Shown: one piece after another, positions 10,301 through 64,000 of the stretch | Layout of the letters: each line of letters opens with the position of its first letter | Position numbering within the stretch: position 1 is the stretch's first letter | Source: Cloeon dipterum | Lineage: Eukaryota > Arthropoda > Insecta > Ephemeroptera > Baetidae | NCBI RefSeq assembly: GCF_949628265.1 | Contig: NC_088790.1 | Location: 2,236,545 to 2,300,544 of the forward strand | Direction of reading: 5' to 3' | DNA length: 64,000 nucleotides | Position numbers and translations under genes: made by a program | The notes under the pieces: generated by a model | Database searches by the model: none | Told to the model about the DNA's origin: nothing | What the model saw: the letters and a program-made list of their open reading frames with translations, nothing else

Positions 10301-12468
10301 ATATTTAAGTAGATTTTATCAAAATTTTTAATAAAATAAATAATCAATTCCAAGTATTCCGAGACAAATTAATGTTTTTAGGCTCTAAAATACATTAACA
10401 TATATTTTAATTCATTTTTAATGTTCTTAAAAATAAAATGAAGGGCGTCTCACCCTATCAAAGCCAGAATATATGATTAAATATAACGTTGTACTCCAGT
10501 TGAATTTTATTTTGGAATTTTCAGGGTATTTTTTAAATAAATTAATAGCAAATGACCCAATTTCAGACAATTATCCAACACGTTCAGTCAAAAATCCCGT
10601 CTTTCCAGTACCACCCCGCTCCCGTCGCGTACGCCACCCCCGCGTACGCCAGTCCCGCGTACGCCTCCCCCGCGCCCGCCGCCTACGTGTCCCACGCCCC
10701 CGCCTCGTACGTGTCGAGCGGCCCCGCCGCCGTGTACGCCGCCCCCGCATACCACAGACAGCAGGACGGCGTCATCAGCGCTCTGACCAAGGCCAAACTG
10801 GCCAAGATCAACGCCGCCACCACCGTCGGCAGCGCCGTCGGACACGCCGTCACCGGCGCCGCCGGCGCCGTCGCCGGAGCCGTCGGAAGCGCCGTCGGAA
10901 GTGCCGTCGGCGCAGGAGCCAGACTCGCCGCTGGCGCCGCCTACGGAGCCGCCAACATCGTCACCGGAGCCGCTCACGGCGCCGCCAACCTCGCCGTCGG
11001 CGCCGCCGACGCCGTCAGCAACCACGTCGCCCACAAGGTCAACGCGATCGCCCCTGCTCACGGCCACGCCCACGCCGTCGGCCCGTCTGCCGGCTACAAC
11101 GCTGCTTGTGAGATTTTTCCCTTTTTTTCAGCATTTTTTCTGTGTGTTCTTAATCTTTCGGACTTGGAGAGTTTTCAGGAAGGGCTGTATCCTGAAAATA
11201 TCCGGAAATCGGGCGTTAAAATCACCAGTTTTAATTTTCTATTGCTAAATTAAATAGAAATTCGTAATTATTGTTCAGTTACTCGCGCCCTTCCTCGATT
11301 ATATTCGACGTTAGAAATGATCACAAAAATTATCGATTTTTGCATAAGAGGAGAATAATCGGGTTTAGAATATTTCAATTTTTTATTTTGCCAATTACCA
11401 TCAGTAAAAATTGCCATTTGTTTTTCATTAATTAATTTAGAAATTATTTGTCTCAATTTTTCGAAAGGTTTGCAAAAAAACGTAACTTGGGGGAATTTTG
11501 AAACGGGGGCGCGGTTTCCCGGAAAAATTAATACGAGGCGGTGAATACGGTCTTTAAATTTAACGTTGATTTACTGACAAATTGTGGAAATGTCTTTATG
11601 GGGGCGTGACTCCCCCAACAAATTAAATAAGAAGGCGCGGGAAAATCGAAATTTCGCTTGCTGGAATTTTGAAATGGGGTTGTGGTCCCTTAAAACTGGT
11701 TAAAGAAGGCGCGCCACTTGTCTTTCAAGGCGGGAAAATAGTAAAATTTGACGTTGTAACTAAGAGCTCGCGGTAATTTTTAATTCGGGCGTGGTTTCCC
11801 GTAAACTAGTAAAAAAAAACTGTGACCCATGTTGTAAAGCGCGGGAAAATTGAAATATTTGACGAATTTACTGAGATTTTCAGCTAAAATCCTGATGAAA
11901 TTTTCAATTCACGGGTTCAAATGAAAAACTCAAGATTTGTTCTACAAAACATTATAGCGATCACAGAAAAAAAATTCTAGTCATGCCGGAATTTCAGGAA
12001 CAATCCCAATTTCCCATCCTGGAATACTCGCTAATTTCGGACTGGCGAATCATAAAAACCTTCTCATTTTATTTGGTTGGTCTAAATTTTACACAGCAAT
12101 GTGCGCATGCTAAGAGAAACCTTTATTTTATTGTTTTAATCACTCTCATCTTCAACTCTCACGCTTCTCCATCAGAACGGTGCTGGAATAATCACACTAA
12201 AAAATAATCAAATCGACTTCCGACTGTGACTAAAAAAATGCATGACTGATTCTATGTGATTAAAATCCAAAAATCTTATCTGTTTGCACGAGTTTAAAAT
12301 TAATCAATTTGAAAAAGACGAGACGAAAAATCACAAATGGCTCCCACAGATGCTGTTCCGAGTTATGCCGGATCCCTGGAAGACAGCTTCGGCGATTTCG
12401 ACGATTCCTACAAGCTGGCCCAGCCCCAGATCAATTTCCAGCCGTCGATCAGCTACGAACTCCACTAA
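4323..12468 (+). CDS. Secreted Ala/Pro-rich cuticle-like structural protein, 5 exons
   Basis: Exons are 4323-4328, 9142-9357, 9410-9646, 10609-11107 and 12350-12468, all with GT-AG introns and matching phases (0,0,0,1), giving 358 aa. Exon 1 codes only Met-Lys; exon 2 supplies the rest of a signal peptide (about residues 1-19). A KR site at residues 52-53 precedes SFGSSYNSYSPAYAYEE, suggesting propeptide removal. Exon 3 codes an amphipathic, charged and Gly-rich stretch. Exon 4 begins with AYATP/AYASP repeats, as in low-complexity insect cuticle proteins, followed by a long Ala/Gly/Val repeat rich in GAAxGA and VGSAVG steps, then a His/Ala segment. The last exon codes an acidic tail ending SYELH. 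Intron 1 is 4.8 kb. The exon 4 start is uncertain: three AG acceptors (after 10566, 10587 and 10608) all keep the frame. Family assignment rests on composition only; the chain of exons is well supported by phase. Confidence 0.75.
4786..4955. mobile_element. Short hairpin MITE, deleted form
   Basis: The left end reads CAACAGGTGGCGTCACCG and the right end CCACTGGCGCCATCTATTGG, which is an imperfect inverted repeat. Inner arms match too: TCAAATCCTGCCACTGTGCA on one side, CAGCAGGATTGAGTTTGAA on the other. Longer relatives with an extra hairpin core lie at 22350-22715 and 56822-57160, so this one looks like an internal-deletion derivative. There is no coding capacity. Confidence 0.75.
6436..6560 (-). 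repeat. GCGCGGGAAAA-family repeat, reverse orientation
   Basis: The block reads GGTGCCACGCC, CCCGCCACGCTTTGCAAC and GGAACCACGCCCCCTTTT, which is the reverse complement of the repeat unit seen at 2461-3245. It lies in intron 1 of the cuticle-like gene. Confidence 0.65.
7020..7262 (+). repeat. GCGCGGGAAAA-family repeat cluster
   Basis: The units GGCGTTGCAAAG, ATGCGGGAAAATCGTAAAAT, CTCGGGAAAATCGTAGAA and GAGGCATGGAGAGTGTTCC follow the same unit plan as 2461-3245. The cluster lies in intron 1 of the cuticle-like gene. Confidence 0.65.
8742..9075 (+). repeat. Two TCTCGCYGAGCA repeat units
   Basis: The signature TCAATTCGTCTCGCCGAGCA lies at about 8759-8778 and recurs as TCGATTCGTCTCGACGAGCA at about 9049-9068. 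Both are followed by ATT(C/G)CAAA. They are about 290 bp apart, and between them are words shared with 32960-33610, such as TTTCCGGAAAA and GCTAAAATGAAGCTTGAT. The second unit ends about 70 bp before the exon 2 acceptor. Confidence 0.7.
9647..10608 (+). other. Intron 3 of the cuticle-like gene
   Basis: An AT-rich intron of just under 1 kb. Its 3' end carries three in-frame acceptors, after 10566, 10587 and 10608, so the 5' edge of exon 4 could vary by 14 codons without a frame change. No other feature was seen. Confidence 0.6.
11478..11905 (+). repeat. GCGCGGGAAAA-family repeat cluster
   Basis: Several units lie in the last intron of the cuticle-like gene. Each has a GGGGGCGCGGTTTCCCGG or GGGCGTGGTTTCCC element, then GCGCGGGAAAAT and TTTGACG. 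Spacing is roughly 60-120 bp and the copies are degenerate. Confidence 0.7.
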
Positions 12469-44431: not shown

Positions 44432-44503
44432 TGACCCCGACGTGACTCGAACACGCAGCCTTCGGAACTGGAGTCCGACGCGCTACCATTGCGCCACGGA
44501 GTC
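44432..44503 (-). tRNA. tRNA-Trp (anticodon CCA)
   Basis: Read on the minus strand, the 72-nt gene begins GACTCCG and ends CGGGGTC plus A, giving a 7-bp acceptor stem with one G-T pair. The anticodon stem TCGGA/TCCGA closes the loop CTCCAGT, anticodon CCA. The T-arm carries GTTCGAGTC. No intron. A T run downstream on the minus strand fits a Pol III terminator. An identical gene lies at 53831-53902. Confidence 0.97.
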
Positions 44504-44584: not shown

Positions 44585-44655
44585 TGCATCGGCCGGGAAT
44601 CGAACCCGGGCCGCCCGCGTGGCAGGCGAGCATTCTACCACTGAACCACCGATGC
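44585..44655 (-). tRNA. tRNA-Gly (anticodon GCC)
   Basis: On the minus strand the 71-nt sequence starts GCATCGGTGG, has the A box TTCAGTGGTAGAAT, an anticodon loop with GCC (CGCCTGCCACGCGGG) and the B box GGTTCGATTCC, and ends CGATGC plus A. The acceptor arms are fully paired. It lies about 80 bp from the tRNA-Trp gene on the same strand. Confidence 0.97.
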
Positions 44656-46157: not shown

Positions 46158-49100
46158 TCATTGCAGCTCGAGTCTGAGCGGGGCCGAGGTATCGATTTCG
46201 TCGTCTCCGTTCATCACACTCTCGAGAGACACTTCCTCCTCTTCGTCCTGCGGGTGTCCGTTGTGGACGGCCCTATCGACCACCACGTTGCTGTTGATGC
46301 TGTTCATGTTAGCACTGATTTGCTCGCGCAGGGCTTTGTTTTGTTCCAGCCAGGCCGAGTGATCCCGTTTGTAGTCCACGATCGGGATTACAAACACAGA
46401 AATGTCGTCGATCGTGGCCGACTTGCCCTCCGAGGTGCGCCAGTTGCGCTCTGTCAACTTGCCCCTCGAGGACATCACCAAGTCCTGAGCTGCAGATGTG
46501 TACCTGAAATTCAATTGTTTTTAATGTCAGTGGAAAATCTATAACCAAATTAAATTAGTCCGATTTAAGGCTCGTTTGAAGATAAATAATACCTATATTT
46601 GTTGCGATTCTCGTCCTGAGGAAACTGTTTGAAGCTTTTTGTGATGATTTCAGCGACCCGTTCGTTACTGGTCACGTCCCACAAACCATCAGTGCCCATA
46701 ATTAAGACATCTTCTTCGCTCCACTCTTCTTCATTATCAACATGCAGTACCTTCACCTACGTTTTCAAATTATATTTACGAAGAAGGCAACTTTTATGGA
46801 TGCAGTACCTCTGGCTGGCATAGTAGGAATGGCTTGATAGGAATATTTGAGTAGAGAGCCTTCAGTTCGTGGTCACCAAATCCTCTGGTGACACCGATTG
46901 TGGCCAAAACTCGGCTCTGCAAAATAAAAATACCAGATTAAGAGAGAAAGAAGAAATTGGGAAACAGCTGCTTGTAGAACTTTGTTTATTGATTCCCTAC
47001 GTTATGCGACACCGTCAATTTTTATTTTTCAGGAAAACCCGCCCCCAGTTAAAAACTACAGTCTGATGTAGACATTCCCCAAAATCAAGTCATTTTTAAA
47101 CAATTAACTTGAAGAAATTGATCATTAACCGATTACAAAACTGATTATTAAAAATAAATCGTTGATGCTTACCCTTTTGCCCTCGCCATGGACAACAGGC
47201 AGCTTGAGATCACTTGGCGTGACGGTTTTGTATCCCCAGCCAGTCATGTACCAGTCCCTGTAGAGGATCCTTTTGCCGATGTCCTTCTGCACCGGTCTCT
47301 GGCAGTAGTCTAGGTGCGTGTACTCGTTGCCCAGCAGCTCCGGTTGCAAGGCAGCCTGAAATTTCCGTAAAATAAATAATCCTGATCAGAATTTAATTAA
47401 AAATAGCTCCTCACAAGTCTGCGGACGCGCTGTCGCTCCGACTCTGGCGTAAAGTCGTACGACATGGGTTGCGAGCGGCTGTGGCGCACAAGCACGGCTC
47501 GCGAGTCTCCAGCGTTGGCCACGTACAACTTTCCGTCAATGAAGAGAGCTGCCAAGGCCGTGCAGCCGCCGTTCACTTTGTATTTCAGTTTGTCCTCTCC
47601 TATTAGTTGATCCTGTTGATGGTTTTATATCAGATAGCGCATCCAGAGTGGAATGTAGGAGATTACCATGTCCCAAAATGCTGACTCCAAGGCACCGGTT
47701 ATCAGAGATTCCTTGCTCACTTCTTTGCCGGGAAAGAAGAAGGATAAGCCGCTCCTCGACGACTTTTCCATCTGCACGACTGGAGGGATCAAGTGGTCGA
47801 TTATGTCCACCAGCTTTTCCTAAAATTTAAATTAAATTTTCAACTATCCATTTTCATGAATCCTATAACCTCTCTTTTCTAGATAAAACGATAAATAATT
47901 ATTGATTTCTTAATATTAAACATTGGAAAAAATGGAACTGTTTAGATTTATTTTTTACTATAGAATAACCAGAGTGGGAGTCTCCATTAAACATGGTAAA
48001 TCGCGGGAGTTTCAAAAAGGGGGCGTGGTTCCCTTGAAAATAAAGGTAAAAATTTACCTATTCACTGAGAAATTGTAAAATGGGGGTATGGATATTTCAT
48101 AAAGAAGGGGTGGCATGTCTCATGAAGCGCGGGCAAAAATTATTATTACTGGACAATCTAGGGGGTTTTGAAATGGGGGCGTGGTACCTAACAATTCATA
48201 AAGGCGTGGCCCATATAAAAAATGCACCGAAAAGTAACAAAAGTGAACGATTTAACTAAAATTTACGCAAAATATTGAAACGGGGACGTGGGAAAATCGT
48301 ATAAATCGAGGTTTTCTCGGGAAATTGAAATGTGGGCGTGGTTCAATGCAAATTTCATCAAGTAGGCTTAACATTTTTGTATCATATATAGAACGCGGGA
48401 AAATCGTTACATTTATGAAGTTTTTAGTGAGAACTCGCGGGAATTTAAAAATAGGGCGAGGTTTCCTGGTAAAACAAAAAGAGGGCGTGGCACATGTTCC
48501 CTTCTCGAAGCAGGGAGGAATAGCAAAACTCACGATTTAATTGGAATCTCGCAGGAAATTGCAGCGGGGCGAGGTTCACCGTAAAGTTGAAATAGGAGGC
48601 GTAGCTTAAGTCGAAAAGCGCGGGAATTTGAAAAAGGGGGCGTGCTTTAAAGTTAAATTAAAAAAGAAGGCGTGGTGCGAGTCGTGAAGGACAGGAAAAT
48701 CGTAATATTTTTTATCGTTTAAATTACCGAGATTAAAAGCCAAAATAAACAATAACCTATTTTCAAAACAAACTTAAATAATTTTTTTAAAAAGCCATAA
48801 GGTTTGAGAAACTAATTACATGAATGATATGGTGCAGTTGGTTTGCAGCAGCCACCGCAGCGCCAGATCCAGCATGTCCATCGAAGATGCCAAAGTAAAC
48901 ATACGGCAGACTTGGTGCTTTGTGGCTGTCCGACGAGTTGCGATCTTGTCTGGTCAGCAAGCCTCGATGGATGCAAGCCTGGTCTTCGTTCAGCATTGAC
49001 TTTCCCGCATTCACAGCCCTGCGAGAGCACACAATATTGATTAAAATTAAAAACTGTTACGTAAATTACGTAAAAGCCTGAAAAACATAATCAATATTTA

Positions 49101-49629
49101 ATTTAATGGCCTGTAAATGAGTCTGTCCCGTTAAGGGCGTATGTACTTTTTATTCTTTTTTTGTTAGGCATGAATAGACTCGTTTTGGCCGTTGAAATTT
49201 TTTTATTGCAACTCATTGCGTTTTTGGGCTCAAACTGAAATGGAGAGATGACGTTTCCCTGGATAAATATTCCTAGTTGTAACAACTGTAAATCATTGCA
49301 AGTGGAAAAAATCTCTAAAGAGTAATTTCACCACAATACAATTTCGCCGATTTGCCGTTGCCGAGTCCTTACTCTGCGTATCCAGCACTCCAGGGCATGA
49401 CGTTGATGTCCCTGGGCACGATAATGGGCCGAATGTGGTGGTCCGCGGTCACCGCGATCTCCTCCTCGGTGTGCAGCTGAAGAAAATGCGGTCGCGTGTA
49501 CGGAAACTTGTGAGGCAAGTGTCGGTGTCTGTCCCGCTCGTCGGACGGGCCGTCGACATCCTTCATGCCGACCACGGGCTCGATCCCGCCGACCACGTTC
49601 ATGAAGGCGCTTCGCACGCGGCTGAACAT
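46158..49629 (-). CDS. PPM1H: PPM1H-type PP2C protein phosphatase, 8 exons
   Basis: Exons from the 5' end: 49629-49373, 49018-48820, 47819-47667, 47612-47415, 47355-47173, 46916-46809, 46756-46593, 46503-46158; phases agree, giving 535 aa, close to vertebrate PPM1H. PP2C motifs are intact: RPIIVPRDINVMPWSAGYAE, NEDQA (96-100), FGIFDGHAG with metal-binding Asp132, NAGDSRA with Asp239, GVTRGFGDHE, GTDGLWD with Asp389 and IDDISVFVIP with Asp453/454. The stretch LYRDWYMTGWGYKT (301-314) matches the flap region special to the PPM1H/J/M group. The enzyme is an Mg/Mn-dependent Ser/Thr phosphatase; the mammalian enzyme removes LRRK2-placed phosphates from Rab GTPases. The C-terminal tail is acidic and not recognised. 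Intron 2 holds a GCGCGGGAAAA repeat cluster. It lies head-to-head with the LRRK gene. Confidence 0.94.
47995..48735 (+). repeat. GCGCGGGAAAA-family repeat cluster in PPM1H intron 2
   Basis: At least six units follow one another in the 1 kb intron (48819-47820). They carry GGGGGCGTGGTTCCC, GAAGGGGTGGCATGTCTCAT, GCGCGGG(C/A)AAAA, GGGGGCGTGGTACC, GAACGCGGGAAAATCG and AAAGCGCGGGAATTTG. The orientation is opposite to the gene. Confidence 0.75.
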
Positions 49630-50408
49630 GGCTGCTGCTTCGTTTCACAGGGTTCGGCGGCCGAAAATCGGCATCAATCGGCGCACGTTGCGTGTGACAT
49701 GCAGGAAAAATCCGAAAAGCGAAAAGTGAGCCGTCTCCTTTTTTATCAGTAGGTTGGACGGTCGACACTTGACGGTGATGCAGCTGACAAGGAAACACAC
49801 GGAAACGCGCATGCGCACTGCGCAGTTCGCCGCAATATCGGAATCGATGTTGAAAATTCGGAGAATTCTCTTTGAAACTTTTATGATTTAAGAAGGAAAT
49901 TTATATGATGATGCTATGAAGCTGAATAAAAATAATAGAGCTGTTTATTTACACCAAATTAGTGAACGTTTACATTTTAAAAGAGGAAATTGATCGATTC
50001 CATAAGTCCGCAGAGCAGATCATAAGAGACTCCGCCTTTTTTTTAGCGTTATTACTGTAAAATTAATCGGTTATGTTAGCAGTATTTGAAGAACCGGTAC
50101 AAATGTACAGTGACCAACGTAACCAACGACCAGCGACCTCAAGTCCGGTTACTACCGTCTCTTTCATTTAAACCGGTATGATATTAGAGGGGAGAGCCCT
50201 TTAAGCCAAACCATATGACTAAAAAGGTCGAGTGGGACCTCTGGTGGCGCCTACGGAACCAGTTATAACAACAACCATGGTGCAAAGAGACCGCAGAATT
50301 TTGAGGTCCTGATTTCCGCACGTTAATCAGGTAATTAACCGGCGCCAATGTTCCAAATTTATTGTGACACTTTCTGATGGAAAATTGCGTTTTTCCCCAT
50401 GCGGCAGA
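49630..50408. promoter_or_regulatory. Bidirectional promoter region between PPM1H and LRRK
   Basis: The two ATGs are 780 bp apart on opposite strands. The region holds an NRF1-type palindrome (49806-49817), an ATCGAT core (49843-49848) and CpG-rich sequence on the PPM1H side. A GGTGGCGCC word lies near 50243. No TATA box was seen for either gene, as expected for broadly expressed genes. Transcript starts were not determined, so each 5' UTR is unknown. Confidence 0.7.
49806..49817. promoter_or_regulatory. NRF1 / Ewg-type site CGCGCATGCGCA
   Basis: The 12 bp fit the NRF1 consensus YGCGCAYGCGCR exactly, with a palindromic GCGCATGCGC core. NRF1 sites are common in TATA-less bidirectional promoters. 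A second partial word, CTGCGCAG, follows directly. Confidence 0.65.
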
Positions 50409-53400
50409 ATGGCAGCTACTTTGACTCCGGAGGAAGAAGACTTTCCCGGCCGACTTCTCCACCAGGTGGGTGTTCATTGACCATGAATTCGTGAGTAGGA
50501 CGCGGTGTCAGGTTATCGGGAAACCGCACCAAAAGGTTTCTGGTGCGTCGCTCTTTTCGACCCACACTGATGAGATGAACTCGCAAAATTCTCTAATGCG
50601 CAGAAAGAAAAATTTAAAATTATAATTTTTGCTTGCAAAAGATGAATAATTGATGCGTACATTCCAAGAGTTGCCCCATACATATCTCTGTCCTTGCGTA
50701 AAAAATATAAAATGCACGGCACAATTTGATAAAAAAAAAATAATTAAAATTCCAATGTCATTTTGATTAGGCTGCTTTGTGGGACAATGCCGAACTGTTG
50801 GAGGACCTGCTTCGGGGGGAGCAGAAAGCCTACATCGACAGCCGCGACTCGTGGGGTCGGACCCCTCTGCACGCTGCAGCTTTGACAGAGAATTCGCGCT
50901 GTTTAAAAGTCCTCTTGGCAGCGGGAGGTAATTCGAGCGGCAGCAATTCGACACCACAAATATGCTAATCCGAATCTGATTCACAGCCAACCCAAACTTG
51001 TCGTGTGGCCCGCGAGGAGAAAATAAGGTATTTAATTGCCAAAGATTTTAATAAAAAATGAATTAATATAAAATTATTGTAGACTCCCCTTCACGTAAGC
51101 AGCGAACACGGGTGTGCGAGCAACGTGCAAGCTTTGCTGGAGCACGGGGCGAATCTGACAGCAAAAGACGTGAATGGGATGACCGCTCTGGACGTGGCCG
51201 AGGCTGGCGAGCACTCGATAACCCTGCGACAGCTCAAAGAGGCAGCTGGTGAGTACCATTAACATTTCTCTCGGCAGGGATGTGTTTATCTCAATCGCGC
51301 GCGCGGATATTCCATTTCAAGTCAGACGGGTAAGATGCGGTTTCGGGCAAATGTCATTCGAGACACTCTGCAGCGTGACACGTAAAAAGAGAAAAACGAG
51401 CAAAAACTGGGTTACCCGTGGTTGAACTTTGCTCCGTGTGCCAGTGAAAGTCTCTTTCTTCTCGGTTGCCTTTGGATCGATCGTGATTGATGTGAGATGC
51501 TGCCTCGACTTTTTTATTTCATGAATCAGCAGACTCACGGTCAGCCATCTGGACCTTTCCTAACAGTAGCACGATCGATTTTTAGTGGAGGTTCCATTCG
51601 TTACACGTTCTAGATATGGATTAGAGCAAAATCAAATTTAAATTAAATAAACATCATTTTGATTTACTTGAACGTTTCAAACATAAGTCACAACTCATTT
51701 CATTCAAATAATAGCAATTTAAATATTGATTTTAAATATTTACGAAATAAAATGTTTGTGTGAAAAACCGATTACAAATAAACGAAAATAGTTTAAAAAT
51801 TGGCATTTGAGCATTCTTAATTATAACGCATTCTTTAAATTAATTTTTTCGGACCATTTGACCAGTAAATTTAATCAATCATTTAATCAGGGCTTTGCAT
51901 GAAAACATCAGTAAACACTGTTAACGCCTTATTTTTTATTTTTCTGGGTAACCAAGCCCCCGTTTCCACATTCCCGTGAAAAAAAGTCAAATTTAATAGC
52001 TTTCCCGCCTTATACAACACGTGCCACGCTTTCTTTTTTAAATAATCTGGTGAACGACACCCTCATTTTCCCGTCAGTTTACGGCAATAAAGTCAAATTA
52101 TCTTGATTTTCCCGCGCTCTCCGACACGTGCCAAGCCTTTAATTACATTTTCCGAGAAAAACGCCCCCGTTTCAAAACTCCCGCGAGTTACGCCCCCTTC
52201 CAGTGGTTACTTTTCCTACAGAGATTCCAATGGACAGTAAAATAAGTGCGTTTAAATTAAAAATATAATATTTTCTAACACTTTTAGCACGAAATAAATG
52301 ACTTTATATGGTCTTGTTCTGTTAATTATTTTTTATCTGCAGTCCAGCTTAAATTTGACGAAATGATTTGAACCGAATTTCTTATTGTAATTTGTTAGTT
52401 AAAATAATTGTTAACTTGAGATAATTATGAAATAAATTTCTGCTTTCTATTCTGAACTAAAATTGCTATGAATCTTCTGACGAGAAAGAGGCTATTAATT
52501 TTATAATTTCTAAATTCACTACAGAGTGAAATGATAGCTTGATGTAACAATAAATAAGTAAGTTGAAGGCTTTGTAGGAACACACTAAACAAAATAAACA
52601 TACTGGTTTCTCTTTTGGAGCATGGCCATGAAGAGAGTCAGTGCCACTCGGCGAATTCGACGCAATTTGACAACAGTATATCTTTTGTCCCTTTCCCGGC
52701 GTTTACGAGGCAGCCGTGCGTGGAATTCGCGATTATGCTTTCTGCAAGATAAAAATAAACAATTTATATACACACCTGTGGTTCTGCATGAGAAATAATT
52801 TCAGCTCCATTTCAAAAAGTGTAAACGGTCGTGACAATTTAATTATGCGTCTAGTAAGATATCGCTGCAGGTCGGGCGGGAATCACGTGACTCCTTTCTT
52901 GGATTATTTACACATATTATATGTATCATTTCCGTGAGCGGATAACAAACTGAGTTGTGCGAGCATAAGTGTTTATTTTATAAACAGAGACCGCTGTAAT
53001 CAGATGGATGTGGTGTTCATTAAGTGAGACCATATAAGAAAACCGCATAAATTGTTGACAATCAATTTTTCCGTCAGTGGCTAGAGTCGGAAATTTGAGA
53101 CAATTTCAAAAGATACACGTGGAGGAGCAAGATTAAAAAATAAAATTATCTAACTGCAAGGAATACGCGATTTCAAGATTTTAAATGCCTTTAAAAGTCG
53201 TGAAGTTTTATTTTATTTTTTCAAAACATTAGGCTTAAATTTAGCTATTTAAATTTTTAAATACAAGTACTTGAAATTTTTGAAACTGCATTTCCGGGAA
53301 ATTGGGGAGGTAACAATATTTTTCCACTATTTAAAATTTCATCAATCTGCTCTCTGAAGTTGCCAAGATTTATGCTCTAGAACTAGCACTCATGGCAACT

Positions 53401-56400
53401 GAATTATAAAGCCATGGCTAACTCGTATCGCTTTTATTCAATTCGAGTTTAAAAAAATTAATTTTGCTGCTCATGAAACCAAATGCCGTGTTGGCCGGAA
53501 GAGCTAGCTAACCAACCGTTGAACTTGAAAGCACTGCTATTTTAAACTTTTCATTCGACTACAACTTTCTGATTGTGCAAACGTTTAGAAGCTCTTTCAG
53601 TGCTTTCTTAAGTTTGCATAATCTTTCGCCTCAACAAGTCAGTATACTGAAATCATTTTGTTTAGAAAAGATAAACATACTACGTTACGAATGATAAGGC
53701 AAGAAAATTATGGTTTCACAACTTTCTGGACAGTTTTACGACTCATTGTTTTCTTAACTTGTTTTTTCAATGCGATTGACGATTAATTTGAGCTTTTTTC
53801 GGCACTAATTTTAGCAAAAACACACTTTTTTGACCCCGACGTGACTCGAACACGCAGCCTTCGGAACTGGAGTCCGACGCGCTACCATTGCGCCACGGAG
53901 TCGTGATATCTCAAATTTTTACTTAAGTCAATTAGACTTCACCTGTTTGTCAAATTGAAGAAAAATTGTGAAGCTTTATTTTTGTTCTGTAGGAAATTAA
54001 AAAAATAGCTATAATTATTTCAGACTGAGAGGCACTGGATAATCTTGAAAAAGTAAGAAGAAAAAATTGGTCATTTTCGTTTTGCTGAATTTAAAAGACG
54101 CTCAAGATCATTAAAACATTTTTGATTTATCCCTTTGGACAATAATTATTTATCTACGATTTTAATTTAGGTTAAAATTATTAAAATTTATGTATTGTTT
54201 TGAGGAAAAAACGTCTTATAGTAAAATTTTGAACCACACTCCTACAAGTATATCATATTTGACCGTTCCAATCGATTCCTGAGATCCTGAGGGTCAAACT
54301 AGGTAACATTGACTGTTTTTGGTTTGAACCTAGCATAATAAATCCGGCAACCAATCAGAAAAGGGAGTGATCGAGACGTTAGCGTTAGCATCACAGCGAC
54401 AGCCAGCGGAAGCGACAAGGCAGGTCAGTTAGCAGTTAAGTTGCTGCTGGCTGTCGCTGTGGCGCTGCTGTCTCGATGTTGCTCGTTGCTGATTGGTCGC
54501 AGGCACTTTTTGCTAGGTTCTCAGACGGTTTTTACGTTTCCACCAAATTGGAACCTCAGAAATTGACTGTTACTGTCAAAAATGCTCTGGAATTTTGATT
54601 TTGTTTCAGAGCTGTCGGTTTCAAGTGGATGGATAAAGGGTGACAATAGAAAATTGTTGGATGAAATGAGCAATTTGTCCTAAAATTTGCAATAATCAAA
54701 ATAGCGCCTTGCTATAAACGCTATGTATACAGTAAAATTTCAAATTTTGTCCAAATCTTGGCAAATTTCGATTCCTCTCGTCGAGATCTGTCCAACAGTG
54801 TTTTAGGGAAATTCTTTGTTGTGAAATAAAATGGGATTTCAAGTAAGGAGATAATTGAAAAGCATGCTTAATTTACAGCCACTTTTCTCAAAACTTTTTA
54901 CACTTAATTTTCGCTTCTACTGAATCCTAAGGTTCATGCATTTTACAGGTTTTTCCAGGATTATTCCTCTTTAAATAAAGGGGACATCGTCGTGAAAAAC
55001 TCCAATCGGTGGTCAAGAATGATAAATTCAAATTCAGACACGTTCGGCCTGAATGGTACGGATGAAAATCGATTTCGGCGTTAAAATCACGCTATAGTTC
55101 TGGCCGAGATAGAGATGCAAATGAGAATTAAAGAGCATGAAAATATTCTCTTTCGCGGCTGGCGCGACTCGATTCACTTGACGGAGCGGGGGAAGTCGGG
55201 AGACAAGTTTGTAGTGTGGCTTCCTCGCGGTGCGGACTGCTTATGCTTAGTCAGTTGCTTGTTTTGGCGCGCGAGAAGAGTGCGAGGACAGATCGCGAGG
55301 AGCGGCAGCCACAAGTGCGCGGCGTGCGGCCTGCCCGGCCATGCAGAACCTGATGCACCGTCTGTGGCTGTCCAGCTTGGGCGAGGTGGTCGACACCATC
55401 AACGCCGAGAACGCGTACGACGCCTGCAACTACTTCATCGACGACCTCACCTCCTCGGCGACCCACGCACGTCCAGGTTGCACCACATTTCTCTACATCT
55501 CGATCTATAACGGCCGTAATTCATGTTTTATCGTGCCTTCATCCGAGTAAATTGGATTAATTAGTCGCTTCAATTGAGCCAAGACGTTGGAAACAGCCAT
55601 TTTTTTCTCTGAAGAATTTGCAAAACTTAATAAAGTTATTTTAAAGAAAGTTTAGATATAAGAGCTTCCGGAAAGGTTCATAGTCACCTTTGAAAGCTTT
55701 TGCAAGGTCAATATGCGAGAGCAACTCATCACAACTTGTACATACTTGCCTTCGGATTCTTCGGAAGCTGTCTGTTGGGAAAAACATCCTTGAAAAGTTA
55801 TCATTGTGTTTAATCAAGCGATCGAAAAATAAGGATATTTATTTCAAAAAGAAAAATAACATTTCTTCATACAGAAAAATAGCGTTTTGACATTGTGTCA
55901 GGAAATCGTTTTAATTAACGTAATTCGGTAATGCCAACCACTTTAAGACTCTTAAAAAGCTAATAATTTGAAGTGTATTTGAGCGTGTTTGTTACATAAT
56001 CAAAAGAATCAGGTTTTAACCAAATTATAACCTCAACTATAAGTATAATGCAACTTGTGGTCGGTGGTTTTTACTCGTTCCCTACACCTCTCGCTCTCGC
56101 TAGCGCTGCTTTTTGAGGTTCCTTTCTGAATGATTAAGAGCTTAGCGAACGAGTTATATAATCGCGTAGGGAAATCAGGTTTTCGCTTGAAGAATGTTAA
56201 TAAATTCCGCGTCCAAGTCGTCGCTGCGCAAAGAAGTTCTCAGCTGCGCAAAGAAGTTCTCAAGGCGTTCAAGCAAGAAACTTTTGCGCCTTCATTTTAA
56301 CTGCGAGCAAAATGGCAAAATTGGCACCACCACGATTTATTTGTGTACTCATCGCAACCGTCTGCGTTTCAAGTTCAAGTCCTTTGTCCGCTTTGGGACG

Positions 56401-59400
56401 TCTGCAGAAATGCATAATCCTGAATTAATGCTGTAATATGTGAGCTGTGCTGCTGAGTTTTTAAATATTCAACCAAGTCTTGGCTTCGGCTTGTATGGTT
56501 TCTCTTTGACAGTTGATATTGTGCTATTTTTTTCACATTTTATCACGAGGGATATCGAATATTTTGTGGTTTTTCACGAGAATCACGAGGAAAGTTACGT
56601 AAAATGTGCATTTTATTTTTTAAGCATTCCGATGATTCATTTTTCATATCATTAAGTTTTAAATTTATTATTTATTCAAGGTTTTAGCTAAAATTTGAAA
56701 CAAAATCATAAAATTTCACGATATTTCCACGCTCTACAACTTGCGCCAGGTTTTTTATTTCTGTGAAACAACGCCTATTTTAAATTTTCCCGTTTTCTGT
56801 TAGCGCCAAATTTTAAAAATCCAAACAGATGGCGCCACCGTATAGTTTGGATTTTAAGTCATTTTCGCAGCGATTTCGGACTGAATCCTGCCACTGTGCA
56901 CTTTCACTTGATTATGTTTTCTTTTAACGTGCTGAATACCAAAATCGGTTAAGCCAATCGCCGTAGAATCGTCAAAACTACTATTTTTAAATAGAAATAT
57001 ATTTTCCGACGTTTCTACGGCGAATGGCTGGACTGATTTTTGTTTCCAGCACGTCTAAAGAAATAATTCTAGAAGCAGAATGTACAGCAGCAGGATTAAG
57101 TCTTAAATCATTAAAATTAAAAGTAACCACTGGCGTCATCTATTGCTCAATTTGAACACTTAAGGGCTTACGCAACTGGTGAATTTCCCGTGTTTAGTGA
57201 ACCACGCCCTCATTGTAAAATTCCAGTTCCAGTGATCAACAAATAAATTATAAACTTTAATACTTTTAAGTAAAACATATTTAAAAATAAAGATCTAAAA
57301 ATTCGATTCTGCAACTCTCTAGCTCGGGCCAAAAGTCATAAATTTTTAGAGCCTCTCATGAATAATTCACCACTCATTACCCCTTGGTTCTCACGCTTCA
57401 TTGAGCATGCTCAAGGTACAAAGTACAAAGCAGTGCGTAAATAAGGCAAGCTATACAGTTCATGATTGAAATAATCAAACTATGCATCCGTCCGCGAGTG
57501 GAGCAGAGGCAGTGCGTGCAGGGGATTTGTTTTGCAGCCTTCGCCTCGTGGAGATTATAATACACGTGAAAAGGAACGGGCACGGCACCTGCCCGCGTGT
57601 ATCCACCGGAGCAAAGAATCGAATTATTGCGCACATGAAATGACACATATGTGTTCAAGAGGCTGGCTGACATTAATCGCGTACGGTGTTCCAGATACTA
57701 TCGCTTTCAGTCTTCAGCCGGCTTTTGCGTATTCCAATAATTGCATTTGCGATTTGTACGCTGTTTTTTTCGGTTGAGCCGGGAAATTGAGACGGCTTCT
57801 TTTTTTTAAGTGTGGTTTTGTCTGCTGATTTAAATTTCACGGTTTAATTTTTTCGCATAAAAATCGATTTTTTTTTTAAATAAAAGTTTGCTTCTAAAAC
57901 GATCGGCCAGAGTTGACTGGCGACACATTTAAGCGCGTTTAAGAACTCATAGAGTGGTTCTGCGTTGTTTTTATGCTTTTATTTGGCAGGCCTATTGGCT
58001 TCAAGTGAGAAAAACCTGTTAGCAAAAGCGTGTCGCGCTTTCGTGAGTTGATTTTTGGCCTTATTGGTGCGTGTGTTGGCCGACAATTCACTTTTAAGGG
58101 TTGCCGTGGAATGTGTCTGATTATTTAAGCAATTATATTTCGTTTTCGTGCTAGCATAGAAGAAAAAAGTCACGTTAATTTTCACGGGCTGGAAGATAAG
58201 CATAAAATCGACACCCAAGGGCTGCTTGACAGTTAACTCGCGAAAGATAACCGAAGGACAGGTGGGACTCGTTCTAGCAGCGAAAAACGAGAACGAGTTC
58301 TTATTTTCGCAGGTGGAAGATTAGCATATAATGCAAACTTCATGTTGTTGGAGACAGTTGAGAATTTTTTCAACGTCCTCTTGGCTAATTGCCACATTCA
58401 GGTCCATAAATTTATCGAAAAATCTAACAGTTCAATTTATAAATTATTTTTTGGCCTTGATTTCGACTCCTCCCGAGGGAAAGTTCCCGAAATTGTGAAA
58501 GGAGACAATCTCACTTGAATCAGAATACAATAAAAAATACCTATTCTTTTTAATTCAATGCGCACCTCCTTTTGTTTCAGATGAGAAAGAACAGAAAAAG
58601 CACGAGCATCACAGCGCCCTGCGAGAGGCGTGCAGCCGCGGCGACACAGATGCGGTCCGGCGAATTGTCGAAAGCATCGGCGAAGAAGCAGAACTCGTGA
58701 TTAACATGGCACCGAGCGGCAGCAACACTCTTTTGTTCACGTGAGTGTAAAAACCGGCTGTCTATTAGCAGACGATCATTATTTTAAAGATCTGCTGGGC
58801 TTAACAGGGCGTGTGAAGTTGGCCAAAAAGAGATTGTCAAAATCTTGCTAGAAAACGAGGCAGACGGTCGAATCCATCCCGTGACCAAGTACTCGCCACT
58901 CTACATCGCATGTTACTATGGCAGAAAAGACATCGTCGAGCTGCTTCTCAAGGTATTAATATATGTCCGCAGCCTCATTAACAATACACAGTCAAGAGTG
59001 AAGGTCTTACATGTCAAAACTTGTCACATATATATTTTTAATTCACTTGAGTGGCTTAAAAGCGTGCACAGAAACACAGAAATTCATTTTTTAAACTGTC
59101 AATCGATTCCTCAGGTTAGCCTAGAGTCCTTATATTATGCAGAGTCGCGTGGATTAGTGACTGACGCGCATTCGCCCTGCGCAGATCCACGTCCATATCT
59201 TTTCCCATGTTAAAGACCGCGTCTTTAACGAATTTTCTGAGCCCACCGATTGATTGCTGAGGGTCGAATTAGGTAAAGTGGATATATTTTCCGACCAAAA
59301 AGTGCAGCGCGACGTGCGTAGCACAGGTATAGAATTTTTTCCCGCCAAAACAATTTGAATGCGAGGACTGCGCATGCGTCAGAGCTGGTTTGAACACCTC

Positions 59401-62400
59401 TTGCAGAGAGACCACCAACTGTTAGAATGAATTCTTTGTCAATCCAGCCAGCTCTGACGCATGTGCACTTCTCGCATTCATATTGTTTTCGGCGGGAAAA
59501 AAGTTCGTCGCGCTGGACTTTTTGGTCGGAAAAAATGTTTACTTTATCTAATTCGGCCCTCAAGAATCGATTGGTGTGCTCAGAAACTTCGTCAAATACG
59601 GTCTTTAAATGACTTTTCATTATTGGCTCTGATAGGAACGTGGATCTGCACAAGGCGAATTCACGTCGGACCTGCGGGACTCTGAATAAAAGCAAGGGCG
59701 GCTGCTAGTTGACCTGCTTTGTCACTGTGGCGCTGCTGTCTCGATCCGGTCAATCAGAGAGAACCACTCCCTTCTCTGATTGGTCGATGGCGTTCTTGTT
59801 CAAACCAAACACCGCCACTTTAGATTAATAAAAAATTCTGTACGGATTGCAACCATTCTCTTCTCTATCACAGGAACATTTTTGTTTTAATTTCCGCAGA
59901 AATTCCCGGAACTAGTCCAGCAGCAAACTGTGGAAAAATGGCTACCGGTGCATGCGTGCTGCATCAACGGCCACGTCGCTGTGTTGGAGCTGTTGCTGAA
60001 GTTTGCGTACCCGCCGAGAGTGATGTGCACCCTGAGAGACAAGTCTGGAGAGTGGGCGTACGACATGCCCTTTGACCTGAACGCGCGGGACGTGACTGGA
60101 CAGAGTGTCCTCTATTTGGCGTGCTACGTCGGTAACCAGAAACTGGTCGACTGCCTGCTCAAGTTCAGGGTCAAAGCGAACAGAATCAATGTGAGTAATT
60201 AATCCTTTTTGTGGTTTTCGCGGGCGGGGCGGGGCGGGGGGCTGATGCACCTCTCGAGTAATGAGAGACTGCTTTAAATGGCTTGTCTCACATGCCTCTG
60301 GTTGCAAAATGCAATAAATATTTATATTTCCTTTCCGCGTGATTATGATTCGTGTCAGTAGATTGTAGGTTATGAAACCATCACTTTCTTCCTAGTGTCG
60401 CATTTGTGAAAACGAATCTCATTTCAACCGCAGTAGAATGTATTTCTGAGGATGTGCATGTGATTATATTTAGTAGGATAAAATGTCTAGCATTTATTTT
60501 GTTTCCCACTGGAAACAAAATGGATCCCCATTAAATTTAATGTGAATGAAATATTTATTAGACTCCACGGGTGTACAACAACAGACATATACAATAATTA
60601 AATCACAGGTTCATTGTTTTTGCTTTGGCGGCTTGGCACAGTATTTCATTCATTCATTAAATTTAAGAGAAATTCGTGTCACACGTGTCTCAAAATGTCA
60701 AAATGCGTGAGGTTGGACGATTTTTTCCTGAGAATTCGCAGGAATTTTGAGATGTAGGCGTGGTTTGCTCGAAAATTAAGAAAAGTTGTGGCACGTGTCA
60801 GAAAACGCGGAAATTCGTTAAATTTTTTAATTGTTACATTTTTTAAGGGGGCAAATTTATAACACGAAATATCGAATATCGCGGGGATATAATATATCGT
60901 TTTAATTAGATATTCATACAAAAACATAGAGATAAAATAATAAGATAATAATACATAATCCACGTCACAACTTGTTATGCACAGATAAATGGAATGCCTT
61001 TTTCCGCCTTTTTCAATCAGTATAAACGAAAAAACATTCCCTTTTTTCATATTATAATACTCAGAAATTCACTATTCTAATAATAACTGTCTCGAGACCT
61101 TTAATTCTATTCTAATTGTCTCGAATTTCTGCATGGACAGGCGTTGCGTATCAAGAAGGAGGACGAGGAGCAAAAAGCCAACGACATACTGAGTCCAACT
61201 CGAAGGAGAATATCGAACGGAATCCAGTCGATAATGTCCAAACTGAATCTGAGCAAGCAGGAGCCGACCGTTTCCAACGAAACGGAGCTGAGCCCTCTGT
61301 TGCTCGATTTGTACTGCAACAACAACACGGAGACGGCCCTGCACGTGGCGGTCAAGTGCAAGCACCACAACATCATCTCGGCGCTGCTGATGGGCGGCGC
61401 CAACCCCAACCTGCCGATCCTGGCCAACGAGGAGGAGCTGAGCCGCGACGAGGGCCTCGGCTCGGCCAGCGGCTCCACCAGCCTGGTGGAGGCGTGCAGG
61501 AACCGCGACCTGACGGCGCTGGACCTGCTGCTCAAGTACGGCGCCAGGGACGACGAGTGCAGGGCCCTGGAGGTGGCCTACCGCGACGAGATCATGTGCG
61601 CCAAGCTGTTGGCCACCAAGGCCCACACGGACCCTGAGTACAAGATCAACAAGAAGGCCATGTCGGAGGTGAGTCCTTCGCAGTTCGCGTCGGCCTCCAG
61701 CCTCGGCAGCCTCACCTACGGCTCCCTCTTCCCCAACACGGCGGTCATGATCAACTGGCACGGCCAGAACTGCCTCAGCCACGTCAAGCCGCAGTGGCTG
61801 GTGGACGCCGCTCTGACGGTCAATCCGCGCCTCAGACTCAACCCCAAACACCAGGACGTCGTCCTCTACTCCATCACCAGGCTGGACATCTCCAGGAACT
61901 CGCTCACCTCGGTTCCCATCGCGGTCTTCCAGCTGCAGAGCCTGAGATATTTGAATTTATCTCAGAACAAACTGGAAAGGCTGCCGTCGAACGAGGAAAA
62001 GTCAACAGTTCCTCTCAGTAAAAGCGGAAGGAACAGAGTAATGGCCGAGGCAATCGGATACATCGCTCCGGTCTTGGAGGAAATCCATCTGCAGTTCAAC
62101 CGACTCGAGCAAATCCCCGAGGAAATTTTCCAGCTGCCCGCCTTGGTCAGTCTGGACGTGTCCAACAACAAACTCCAGTCCCTGCCTTACCTCATGTGGA
62201 AAGCATCCAAGCTCAAAGAGCTGAACGCGTCGTTCAACCTTCTTAGAGAGCTGCCGACGCACCAACAAGGCATCACAGTCGGCATCGACGTCACCAGCTT
62301 GACCAGCGAGCAAATCATGGTCAGATCCGACAGCTTTTCCAGCCAAACTTCCCTGGGGGTAAGTACAATTTGTTTTGAATTTGTTGCGTATTTTTTTCGG

Positions 62401-64000
62401 GAAGCGATCTGTTTTCGTGCGGTGGAGGACCTATAACGTTCTGATTGGCCAACAACGAAATGCATACCGCCACAAATAACAAAATGTGATTTCTAGAGAG
62501 GACAGGAGGATAAAAATTCGTCCTGCAATGACGTGTCTGAGCTAACGGACGATTCTTTGCAAGACGCGCAAACCTTGAACTCGTGCGTCAACAAAAGCAA
62601 ATTTGTTCAGTGAGTTTTCGAAGCGTGCTCCAAATTCCCAACTAACTTCAGTAATTTCCGTAGAAATATGGACTTGAAACATTTGAATATATGGAGCAAA
62701 AACGTGGAAGTGAATGACCAAATCCTGCACGCGGACGAAGACAGTTTAGAAAACTGTTCGCAACTGTCGGCGCTGAATCTGGCGCACAACGCGTTTTCCT
62801 GCATTCCTTCCGCTCTGCCCTGCTTGGCTGTGAACCTAACCAGACTGAATCTCAGTTACAACAAGTAATAAAATGCAATAATAATTTCAAGCTGTCAAAC
62901 TAATTCTGGTTGTCCAGCCTGAGGAGCATGGGACACGTAACGTCGTATCCGAGCACCCTGAAGCAGCTCGATTTGTCACACAATCAGATCTGCTGCTGGC
63001 CGAGCTTGCCTCAACTCGAAGCCCTGGACGCCGCAGGTGACATGTCCCATCTCAACTGCTACTGCCCTTCTGAGAACACAAAACCAAAGAAAACGCCTAT
63101 TCTATCCGGTATCCGAGTAGAATTTTATTTTGGTTTCTTAATTTATAACGTTTCGTTAATTTGCAAGGTCGGCTTTCGAGCAGCAAATCTTTGAGAAGTA
63201 TGATTCTCAATTCAGTTTGCACACATAGGCGCCACCTGAAGCTCGATTCTATGCGCACTCTTATTTTGGCCGATAACTGTTTGGAGAGAATCCAGCTTTC
63301 GACTGACGACGACGGTGGCTCCATCGCTGAAGAGGACGAAGCCGAAGATTTGGTAAATTCCAACTTTCAGGTTTCAAAACACGAAATATCGAGTTTAGTA
63401 TCATTTATTTCAGAGATTTTCAACGCTGGGGAGTTCAAATTTAGTGGTAAATTGTTAATTTGATCTGCTCAGGGTCTAAAACAAATAGTTTTTCGTGTTT
63501 TAAAACTCAGGGTCACGTCAGGGTTAGTTAATGTTTGTTATATTAACACGTATATCTGCTGACAGGATCCTTCAAATCCAGTGGTGACGGGCAAATCAAA
63601 ACTAATGTTCCCCAACATGAGCATGCTGGACATCAGCAACAACAACCTCCACGAAATTCCTAGAAACATCAACGAACTGAACAATTTGTCCGTTTTGAAC
63701 ATCAGCGGCAATCCTGGTAAGCCCATAACCAATTAAAACTGCAATAATTTTTTAAAAAAATTTCATTTCCTCAGACATAAATGAGCTGCCGCCTCAAATG
63801 GGTTTGCTTTCGAGGCTGTGGAATCTGAACACGAACGGCTGCAGCTTGCAAGAGCCGCTCAAGTCGATGATCGAATCAAAAAAGTACAAAACCATGGATG
63901 TGATTGGCTACTTGAAATCCGTGCTTGAGGATGCAAAGCCGTACGCCAGGATCAAGCTCATGATCGTTGGCGTCCAGGGAATTGGAAAAACGTCTCTCCT
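50409..64000 (+). CDS. LRRK: LRRK-family kinase (ankyrin-LRR-Roc), 5' part; runs off the window
   Basis: Exons: 50409-50465, 50771-50927, 50987-51027, 51083-51248, 58581-58740, 58808-58952, 59900-60190, 61141-62358, 62497-62609, 62664-62864, 62918-63108, 63168-63352, 63566-63716, 63775-64000 (open); phases agree at every junction, giving 1100 aa so far. Residues about 20-460 are ankyrin repeats (GRTPLHAAAL, KTPLHVSSEHG, YSPLYIACYYG, QSVLYLACYVG, ETALHVAVKCK). Residues about 560-1070 are leucine-rich repeats (ITRLDISRNSLTSVP, LRYLNLSQNKLERLP, LVSLDVSNNKLQSLP, MLDISNNNLHEIP). The window ends in the Roc GTPase: RIKLMIVGVQGIGKTSLL, with P-loop Lys about 1097. COR, kinase and WD40 parts must lie downstream. 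There is no armadillo region, so the plan is LRRK1-like, as in invertebrate Lrrk. It starts 780 bp from the divergent PPM1H gene. Confidence 0.95.
51945..52235 (-). repeat. GCGCGGGAAAA-family repeat cluster, reverse orientation
   Basis: GTAACCAAGCCCCCGTTTCC, TTTCCCGCCTTATACAACAC, GTGCCACGCTTTC, TTTTCCCGCGCTCTCCGACA and CGTGCCAAGCC are reverse complements of the family unit. Location: LRRK intron 4. Confidence 0.7.
53831..53902 (-). tRNA. tRNA-Trp (anticodon CCA), inside LRRK intron 4
   Basis: The 72 nt are identical to the tRNA gene at 44432-44503, read on the minus strand: GACTCCG acceptor arm, CTCCAGT loop with anticodon CCA, GTTCGAGTC T-arm. It is antisense to LRRK, and its T-rich end (plus-strand CACTTTTT precedes it; the minus-strand side reads A-rich) leaves the terminator less clear than for the first copy. 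Confidence 0.96.
54345..54510. repeat. Hairpin repeat with GACAGCCAGCG arms
   Basis: CAACCAATCAGAAAAGGGAG, GATCGAGACG, AGCGACAGCCAGCGGAAGCG on the left pairs with CTGGCTGTCGCTGTGGCGCT, GTCTCGATG and CTGATTGGTCG on the right, an inverted repeat of about 70 bp arms. Single arms of the family occur at 45445-45540 and 59705-59795. Confidence 0.75.
54650..54990 (+). repeat. AAGTAAGGAGACA dispersed repeat
   Basis: TTGTTGGATGAAATGAGCAA, GATTCCTCTCGTCGAGATCT, TTGTTGTGAAATAAAATGGG, TTCAAGTAAGGAGATAATT and CTTCTACTGAATCCTAAGG line up with 42345-42650. Confidence 0.75.
55341..55476 (+). CDS. LRRK: Candidate alternative first exon of LRRK
   Basis: An ATG at 55341 opens 45 codons (starting MQNLMHRLWLSSLGE, then VVDTINAENAYDACNYF) up to a CCAG|GTTGCA donor at 55476. 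It ends in phase 1, which is exactly what LRRK exon 5 (58581) needs. It is CpG-rich, unlike the surrounding AT-rich intron, and has GCC before the ATG. Read as an internal exon from the nearest upstream acceptor it would hit a stop, so a first exon is the better reading. The product would lack the first 140 residues with their ankyrin repeats. No conserved domain is recognised in it; it could alternatively be a separate small gene. Confidence 0.5.
56690..56815 (-). repeat. GCGCGGGAAAA-family repeat, reverse orientation
   Basis: CACGATATTTCCACGCTCTA, ACTTGCGCCAGG, GAAACAACGCC and TTCCCGTTTTC are reverse-orientation remnants of the family unit, directly beside the MITE at 56822. Confidence 0.5.
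56822..57160. mobile_element. Hairpin MITE, most complete copy
   Basis: The left end is CAAACAGATGGCGCCACCGT; the right end CCACTGGCGTCATCTATTG is its imperfect reverse complement. Internal pairs: ACTGAATCCTGCCACTGTGC with CAGCAGGATTAAGTC, and AAATCGGTTAAGCCAATCGC, GTAGAATCG with TTTCTACGGCGAATGGCTGG. So the whole 340 bp can fold into one hairpin. No ORF. Relatives: 4786-4955, 22350-22715, 39822-39985. Confidence 0.82.
58440..58530 (+). repeat. Partial AAGTAAGGAGACA-family repeat
   Basis: CCTTGATTTCGACTCCTCCC, then GTGAAAGGAGACAATCTCAC, resemble the central part of 42345-42650. The copy is short and diverged, just upstream of LRRK exon 5. Confidence 0.5.
58953..59899 (+). other. Intron 6 of LRRK, filled by a foldback element
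   Basis: This intron of about 950 bp is largely taken up by the inverted-repeat element at 59150-59690 and by a GACAGCCAGCG-family fragment at 59705-59795. No exon was seen inside. Confidence 0.65.
59150..59690. mobile_element. Long-armed foldback element, about 540 bp
   Basis: The left arm (59150-59395) contains GTGACTGACGCGCATTCGCC, CTGCGCAGATCCACGTCC, GACCAAAAAGTGCAGCGCGA and CAAAACAATTTGAATGCGAG. The right arm (59448-59690) is its reverse complement: CTCGCATTCATATTGTTTTC, TCGCGCTGGACTTTTTGGTC and ACGTGGATCTGCACAAGGCG. Arms are about 240 bp with a 50 bp loop. No coding capacity is seen. Confidence 0.82.
60191..61140 (+). other. Intron 7 of LRRK
   Basis: About 950 bp. It begins with a GGGGCGGGGCGGGGGGC run (near 60223-60241), which could form a G-rich structure in the transcript. 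It also has GCGCGGGAAAA-family units at 60680-60850 and is otherwise AT-rich. Confidence 0.6.
60680..60850 (+). repeat. GCGCGGGAAAA-family repeat
   Basis: ACACGTGTCTCAAAATGTC, AGAATTCGCAGGAATTTTGA, TAGGCGTGGTTTGC, GTTGTGGCACGTGTC and AAAACGCGGAAATTCGTTAA follow the unit plan of the family. Confidence 0.65.

Follow-up and report, generated by a model that had tools for sequence, protein, structure and literature searches.

An LRRK kinase gene and a PPM1H-type phosphatase gene as divergent neighbours in the mayfly Cloeon dipterum, with a candidate shared promoter region

In the mayfly Cloeon dipterum, the gene of an LRRK kinase and the gene of a PPM1H-type phosphatase lie back to back, the phosphatase on the minus strand and the kinase on the plus strand, with 779 bp between their start codons. 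The pair is located in a window of 64,000 nucleotides (the whole stretch of DNA analysed, positions 2236545-2300544 of contig C5, NC_088790.1, in a genome of 190.1 Mb on 10 contigs), and it is a genuine divergent pair in this species. A first-pass annotation of the DNA had claimed such divergent neighbours, and gene models and domain matches bear out the identities of the genes, their orientation and their spacing, which is 780 bp if counted from the first base of one ATG to that of the other; as it is measured between start codons, it differs from the distance of the transcription start sites. LRRK and PPM1H, each the sole gene of its kind that turned up in the genome, are probably a genuine pair, possibly with a promoter region in common. 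It is highly improbable that the two genes have been misjoined in the assembly, as there is not a single N from 46158 to 64000, both genes are on one 33.2-Mb contig, and the DNA of the gap matches itself alone in a search of the whole genome in which simple repeats and the most common words are passed over. On the same single match, and with the same words passed over, it was dropped as a possibility that the gap contains repetitive or mobile DNA, and no RNA gene was found in the gap by an Rfam match at gathering level.

The phosphatase gene is intact from ATG to stop codon, so that its earlier description as a full PPM1H-type gene holds for all of its 8 exons. The seven modelled introns all start with GT and end with AG, in a modelling script that demanded AG and favoured GT. 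Residues 37-464 match the chains of the human PPM1H crystal structure (7l4j) with an E value of 8.5e-128 and 217 identities in 428 query residues (hand count of the printed alignment midline), and the best PP2C enzyme other than PPM1H in this PDB comparison scored 63.9 bits, as against 430.6 bits for PPM1H. The PP2C metal-site motifs are found at NEDQ 96, FDGHAGSG 131, TDGLWDV 388 and DDISVFVIP 453, and the flap motif YRDWYMTGW at 301, the roles of these motifs being in part general background on the family. With human PPM1H and its relatives PPM1J and PPM1M the mayfly protein shares the PP2C domain and the flap word YRDxxMTGWxYKT (PMC6850886, PMC10622911, PMC12462683), and in comparison with human PPM1H it is several residues shorter in the stretch past the NEDQ motif and has a tail of its own beyond the aligned part. 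The 49 sequences listed in the PDB comparison include no chain of PPM1J or PPM1M and thus do not decide between these and PPM1H, and because there is no structure of either to compare, the choice of PPM1H is based on the N-terminal helix. In human PPM1H, a membrane-attaching N-terminal helix has a hydrophobic face that is centred on L2, V9 and I16 (PMC10622911), and PPM1M is described as a protein without that helix (PMC12462683). The mayfly protein has a predicted N-terminal amphipathic helix that is likewise hydrophobic at positions 2, 9 and 16. For residues 1 to 18 the hydrophobic moment is 0.44, a value that was reached in 158 of 10000 shuffles and, with the N-terminus itself included, in 17 of the 518 stretches of 18 residues in the same phosphatase.

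Also the LRRK gene had been recognized correctly, but it runs past the end of the window. With the next stretch of the contig added, 20 exons could be modelled from 50409 to 65834, pieces of the kinase domain were found at 67831-70206, outside the window, and open frames that extend to about 72.9 kb may represent the C-terminal part (all in extended coordinates). The splice junctions are partly uncertain, chiefly after exons 5, 9 and 11, and exon 7 was shortened by hand. According to Pfam, the modelled part contains the domains ankyrin, LRR, Roc and COR-A in the order typical of Roco proteins, with 63.6 bits for Roc on the joined protein. Human LRRK1 and LRRK2 share with the mayfly protein the ankyrin, LRR, Roc and COR parts and a kinase domain with a DYG word, and they differ from it in that the mayfly protein combines a kinase domain that leans to LRRK1 with a Roc-COR part that leans slightly to LRRK2. 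The three best PDB matches of the kinase domain are LRRK1 chains with 145.9 to 145.8 bits, whereas LRRK2 reaches 102.2 bits, with one EGFR entry (9p9u) in between at 125.5 bits; the best matches of Roc-COR are LRRK2 with 171.8 and LRRK1 with 159.1 bits. An armadillo family was not reported by Pfam in the modelled N-terminal 1508 amino acids.

Extra copies, which would weaken the pairing, were considered and dropped, as a second LRRK or PPM1H-like gene was not found in the 190.1-Mb genome by searches that were done exon by exon with the best candidates scored, an approach that a very divergent copy could escape. When the genome was compared with pieces of the kinase, which had been entered in scrambled order, the LRRK gene itself accounted for the three top-scoring places (293.6, 175.2 and 90.5 bits), and the next of the 13 matches had 37.8 bits. 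In case of the phosphatase, seven of eight matches fell into the PPM1H gene (best 236.2 bits) and the eighth scored 26.4 bits. Other PP2C enzymes do exist, since a Pfam PP2C search gave 18 places in the genome, one of them inside the PPM1H gene. Viral contigs were also scanned with the phosphatase for stray animal DNA; one stretch matched a pattern, and none encoded a relative.

The gap between the two genes is slightly richer in GC than the window (0.434 versus 0.40) and has a higher CpG ratio (1.31 versus 1.15). The GC content reaches its maximum of 0.62 in exon 1 of PPM1H (49400-49599) and is 0.535 at 49600-49799. The gap contains a perfect palindromic core GCGCATGCGC, which is the preferred site of NRF1, a factor with Erect wing as its homologue in the fly (PMC10810270). 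This core occurs only once in the window, and in the 190.1 Mb of the genome the full consensus YGCGCAYGCGCR was matched 245 times forward and 243 times in reverse, many of these matches being at the same palindromic place, whereas a control with the consensus read backwards gave 81 and 76. A gap of 779 bp is thus expected to contain 0.001-0.002 such sites, and one is observed. A gene of the NRF1 type is present elsewhere in the genome, at 28.67 Mb of contig C1. Among the 100 consensus matches listed, all of them on C1, 70 crowd within about 37.2-43 Mb of that contig, for which gene density, base composition or a repeat may be responsible.

The NRF1 core was one of 24 motif patterns with which the gap was scanned, and positions were obtained for 22 of these (all except DPE and TCT). 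Apart from that core, the gap contains GGTGGCGC, which is presumably a CTCF-like core, as well as CAGCTG, CCAAT, CGATA and one TCAKTY initiator. Only the NRF1 core and GGTGGCGC (three occurrences on both strands) are rare in the window, the other four motifs occurring at ordinary rates, and 16 patterns were absent from the gap, including TATA, DRE, three Ohler motifs, CACGTG, GAGA, ETS, CRE and FOXO. Initiator-like words are too frequent on both strands for placing start sites. In front of LRRK there is a candidate intron in the 5' untranslated region (5' UTR), and the start site of this gene may therefore sit upstream of 50331. Judged from the DNA alone, both genes would be transcribed from within or near the gap, PPM1H by a CpG-rich promoter with the NRF1/Erect-wing site, and LRRK from a start of its own, perhaps upstream of 50331. 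The gap is possibly a shared promoter region of the two genes.

Several aspects weigh against such a reading of the locus. The promoter features are lopsided, since both the GC peak and the NRF1 site are on the PPM1H side, the latter 178 bp from the ATG of PPM1H and 593 bp from that of LRRK, and the segment 49800-49999 is AT-rich (GC 0.345), which would suit two separate promoters. As 24 patterns were tried, a single rare match is less remarkable than its raw rate suggests, the NRF1 matches are unevenly spread across the genome (among those listed, all on C1), and possible 5' UTR introns may shift the start sites in either direction. Concerning the kinase, its splice junctions are outside the exon model, which ends at 65834, and the joined open-frame pieces of the putative LRRK C-terminus, where LRRK proteins have a WD40 domain, gave no match in the PDB up to an E value of 10.

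The geometry of the pair is ordinary, together with some co-expression, since divergent pairs are frequent in the fly, where 2,199 pairs with less than 1 kb between them cover 31.6% of the genes, and 84.8% of the pairs have a significantly correlated expression (PMC2670823). These Drosophila pairs are like the mayfly pair in their orientation and in a spacing of less than 1 kb, with theirs measured by start sites and that of the mayfly by start codons. As correlation is found for most of the fly pairs, it is likely that also LRRK and PPM1H are partly correlated in expression, by analogy through a shared open region. What is noteworthy is the identity of the partners, rather than the spacing. 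Within the reading of a genuine pair two finer readings have to be weighed, one of which takes the genes as neighbours by chance, brought together by a rearrangement in this lineage, with two independent promoters and a merely coincidental functional link of their products. The skew of the promoter-like features to the PPM1H side fits this view, and since many meaningful kinase-phosphatase pairs might have drawn notice, chance has to be taken as a serious rival. By an own estimate that uses the 2,199 pairs and 13,678 fly genes, a named pair of genes would on the other hand be divergent neighbours by chance in about 2 of 100,000 cases, LRRK and PPM1H are each the single gene of their kind found in the genome, and divergent pairs of insects are retained more often than random pairs (PMC2670823). 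The same source describes the fly pairs as remarkably conserved given the gene density, as more dynamic than those of vertebrates, and as having originated independently in different lineages. On balance, a neighbourhood by chance falls only a little short of an even bet.

The other finer reading gives weight to what the two enzymes do. The potential substrates, Rab genes with a switch-II residue that can be phosphorylated, are present, as a scan of Rab switch-II regions, done by pattern on 30 loci out of 128 Ras-family matches (with no pattern match in 5 of the 30), found the word T-(I/L)-T-T-(A/S)-YYRGAMG at L026, L032, L036 and L045, which we take to be typical of Rab10, Rab3, Rab8 and a related Rab, and QSLGVAFYRGAD at L042, which is presumably as in Rab7. 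The genome thus offers candidate sites to an LRRK of either kind. PPM1H has been reported to reverse the phosphorylation of Rabs by LRRK2 (PMC6850886), and the opposition of kinase and phosphatase that the first-pass annotation had derived from this is sound for the human homologues, but the analogy to LRRK2 could not be kept at face value, as the kinase domain of the mayfly protein is nearer to that of LRRK1. LRRK1 phosphorylates Rab7A at Ser72, and Rab8A and Rab10 are not its targets in cells (PMC12076734). The antagonism can nevertheless be retained, because overexpressed PPM1H also strips the LRRK1-dependent phosphate from Rab7A, which PPM1J and PPM1M do not (PMC7886321; a correction to this paper, PMC12224886, deals with the repetition of a GFP (LRRK1) blot in the same figure). 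By analogy to the human homologues, the mayfly LRRK would thus phosphorylate switch II of some Rabs, and PPM1H, held at the membrane by its N-terminal helix, would remove this phosphate, so that an antagonism of the two is plausible even if the kinase is LRRK1-like.

It has thus to be considered whether selection has kept the enzyme that writes the phosphate and the enzyme that erases it on one bidirectional promoter, possibly driven by NRF1/Erect wing, which would fix the ratio of kinase to phosphatase and permit a fast turnover of Rab phosphates without drift. The start codons that are less than 1 kb apart, the perfect NRF1 site where so few are expected, the NRF1-family gene and the Rab switch-II sites in the genome, and the action of PPM1H on Rab phosphates from both LRRK1 and LRRK2 (PMC7886321, PMC6850886) would all agree with it. 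The distance of the NRF1 site from the LRRK start codon does not, and such a selected arrangement is rather unlikely. It also counts against it that we know of no linkage of LRRK and PPM1H in human or fly. In the literature, such a linkage was not found among open-licence papers, as judged from their titles and the starts of their abstracts. A dedicated control of the kinase-phosphatase balance at this locus is possible, yet not the default.

The LRRK family includes a Parkinson's disease protein, and for research on this disease it is a central question how the activity of LRRK is balanced against its reversal. Most of this work has been done in mammals, where there are two kinases of the LRRK type and three phosphatases of the PPM1H subfamily. 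A genome with one LRRK and one PPM1H side by side is a simple setting in comparison, and one short stretch of DNA could be tested for its control of both. Also Parkin is a Parkinson-related gene with a close divergent neighbour, PACRG, and these two, unlike LRRK and PPM1H, to our knowledge do not catalyse opposite reactions. The start sites of Parkin and PACRG are about 200 bp apart, and their shared bidirectional promoter is stated as known, whereas that of the mayfly pair is a candidate (PMC5951884). If the mayfly pair proves to be old, the linkage would mark LRRK and PPM1H as partners that predate the split of LRRK1 and LRRK2, and if it is a local accident, the significance of the pairing is modest. 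It would be a rather bold guess that the Rab-phosphorylation switch of this lineage is one locus, with the sole LRRK as writer and the sole PPM1H as eraser on one NRF1/Erect-wing-responsive bidirectional promoter; if this were true, the energy state or the neuronal state would alter the rate of Rab phosphate turnover and leave the balance unchanged.

Table 1. Features of the LRRK-PPM1H locus in window coordinates.
Feature	Position	Strand	Basis and remarks
PPM1H-type PP2C phosphatase gene, 8 coding exons, 535 amino acids	46158..49629	-	gene model; PDB match to human PPM1H, 430.6 bits; single such gene found in genome
PPM1H exon 1 with predicted N-terminal helix MFSRVRSAFMNVVGGI	49373..49629	-	gene model; F2, F9, I16 where human PPM1H has L2, V9, I16
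Intergenic gap, candidate divergent promoter region	49630..50408	none	779 bp, between both start codons
Perfect palindromic NRF1/EWG core GCGCATGCGC	49807..49816	none	full YGCGCAYGCGCR match at 49806-49817
Candidate 5' UTR intron of LRRK	50331..50407	+	donor 4.25, acceptor 2.7 (own simple scale)
LRRK gene: ankyrin, LRR and start of Roc exons	50409..64000	+	continues past window
LRRK first coding exon, 19 codons	50409..50465	+	donor score 4.7; in-frame stop 99 bases upstream
LRRK exon 14, P-loop GVQGIGKTS opening the Roc GTPase domain	63775..64000	+	P-loop by eye; exon ends at 64052

The introns of both genes harbour further elements. A degenerate repeat around GCGGGAA-TTT-AAA-GGGGGCGTGG is found at 47994-48698 and 52001-52191, with four 39-nucleotide copies in intron 2 of PPM1H that are 69-79% like the first, and with inverted relatives in intron 4 of LRRK that are 73% and 83% complementary. 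In intron 5 of LRRK, a 20-bp unit is present in two exact tandem copies (56223-56262). The window also contains three tRNA genes, at 44432-44503, 44585-44655 and 53831-53902 (minus), of which two are for tRNA-Trp(CCA) and one is for tRNA-Gly(GCC), and the second tRNA-Trp, which lies antisense within the 4-kb intron 4 of LRRK, equals the first in score (66.1 bits each). Far from the pair, at 9019-11250 on the plus strand, there are open frames of alanine-rich small proteins with PAY-type repeats (by eye) that are possibly secreted and cuticle-like.
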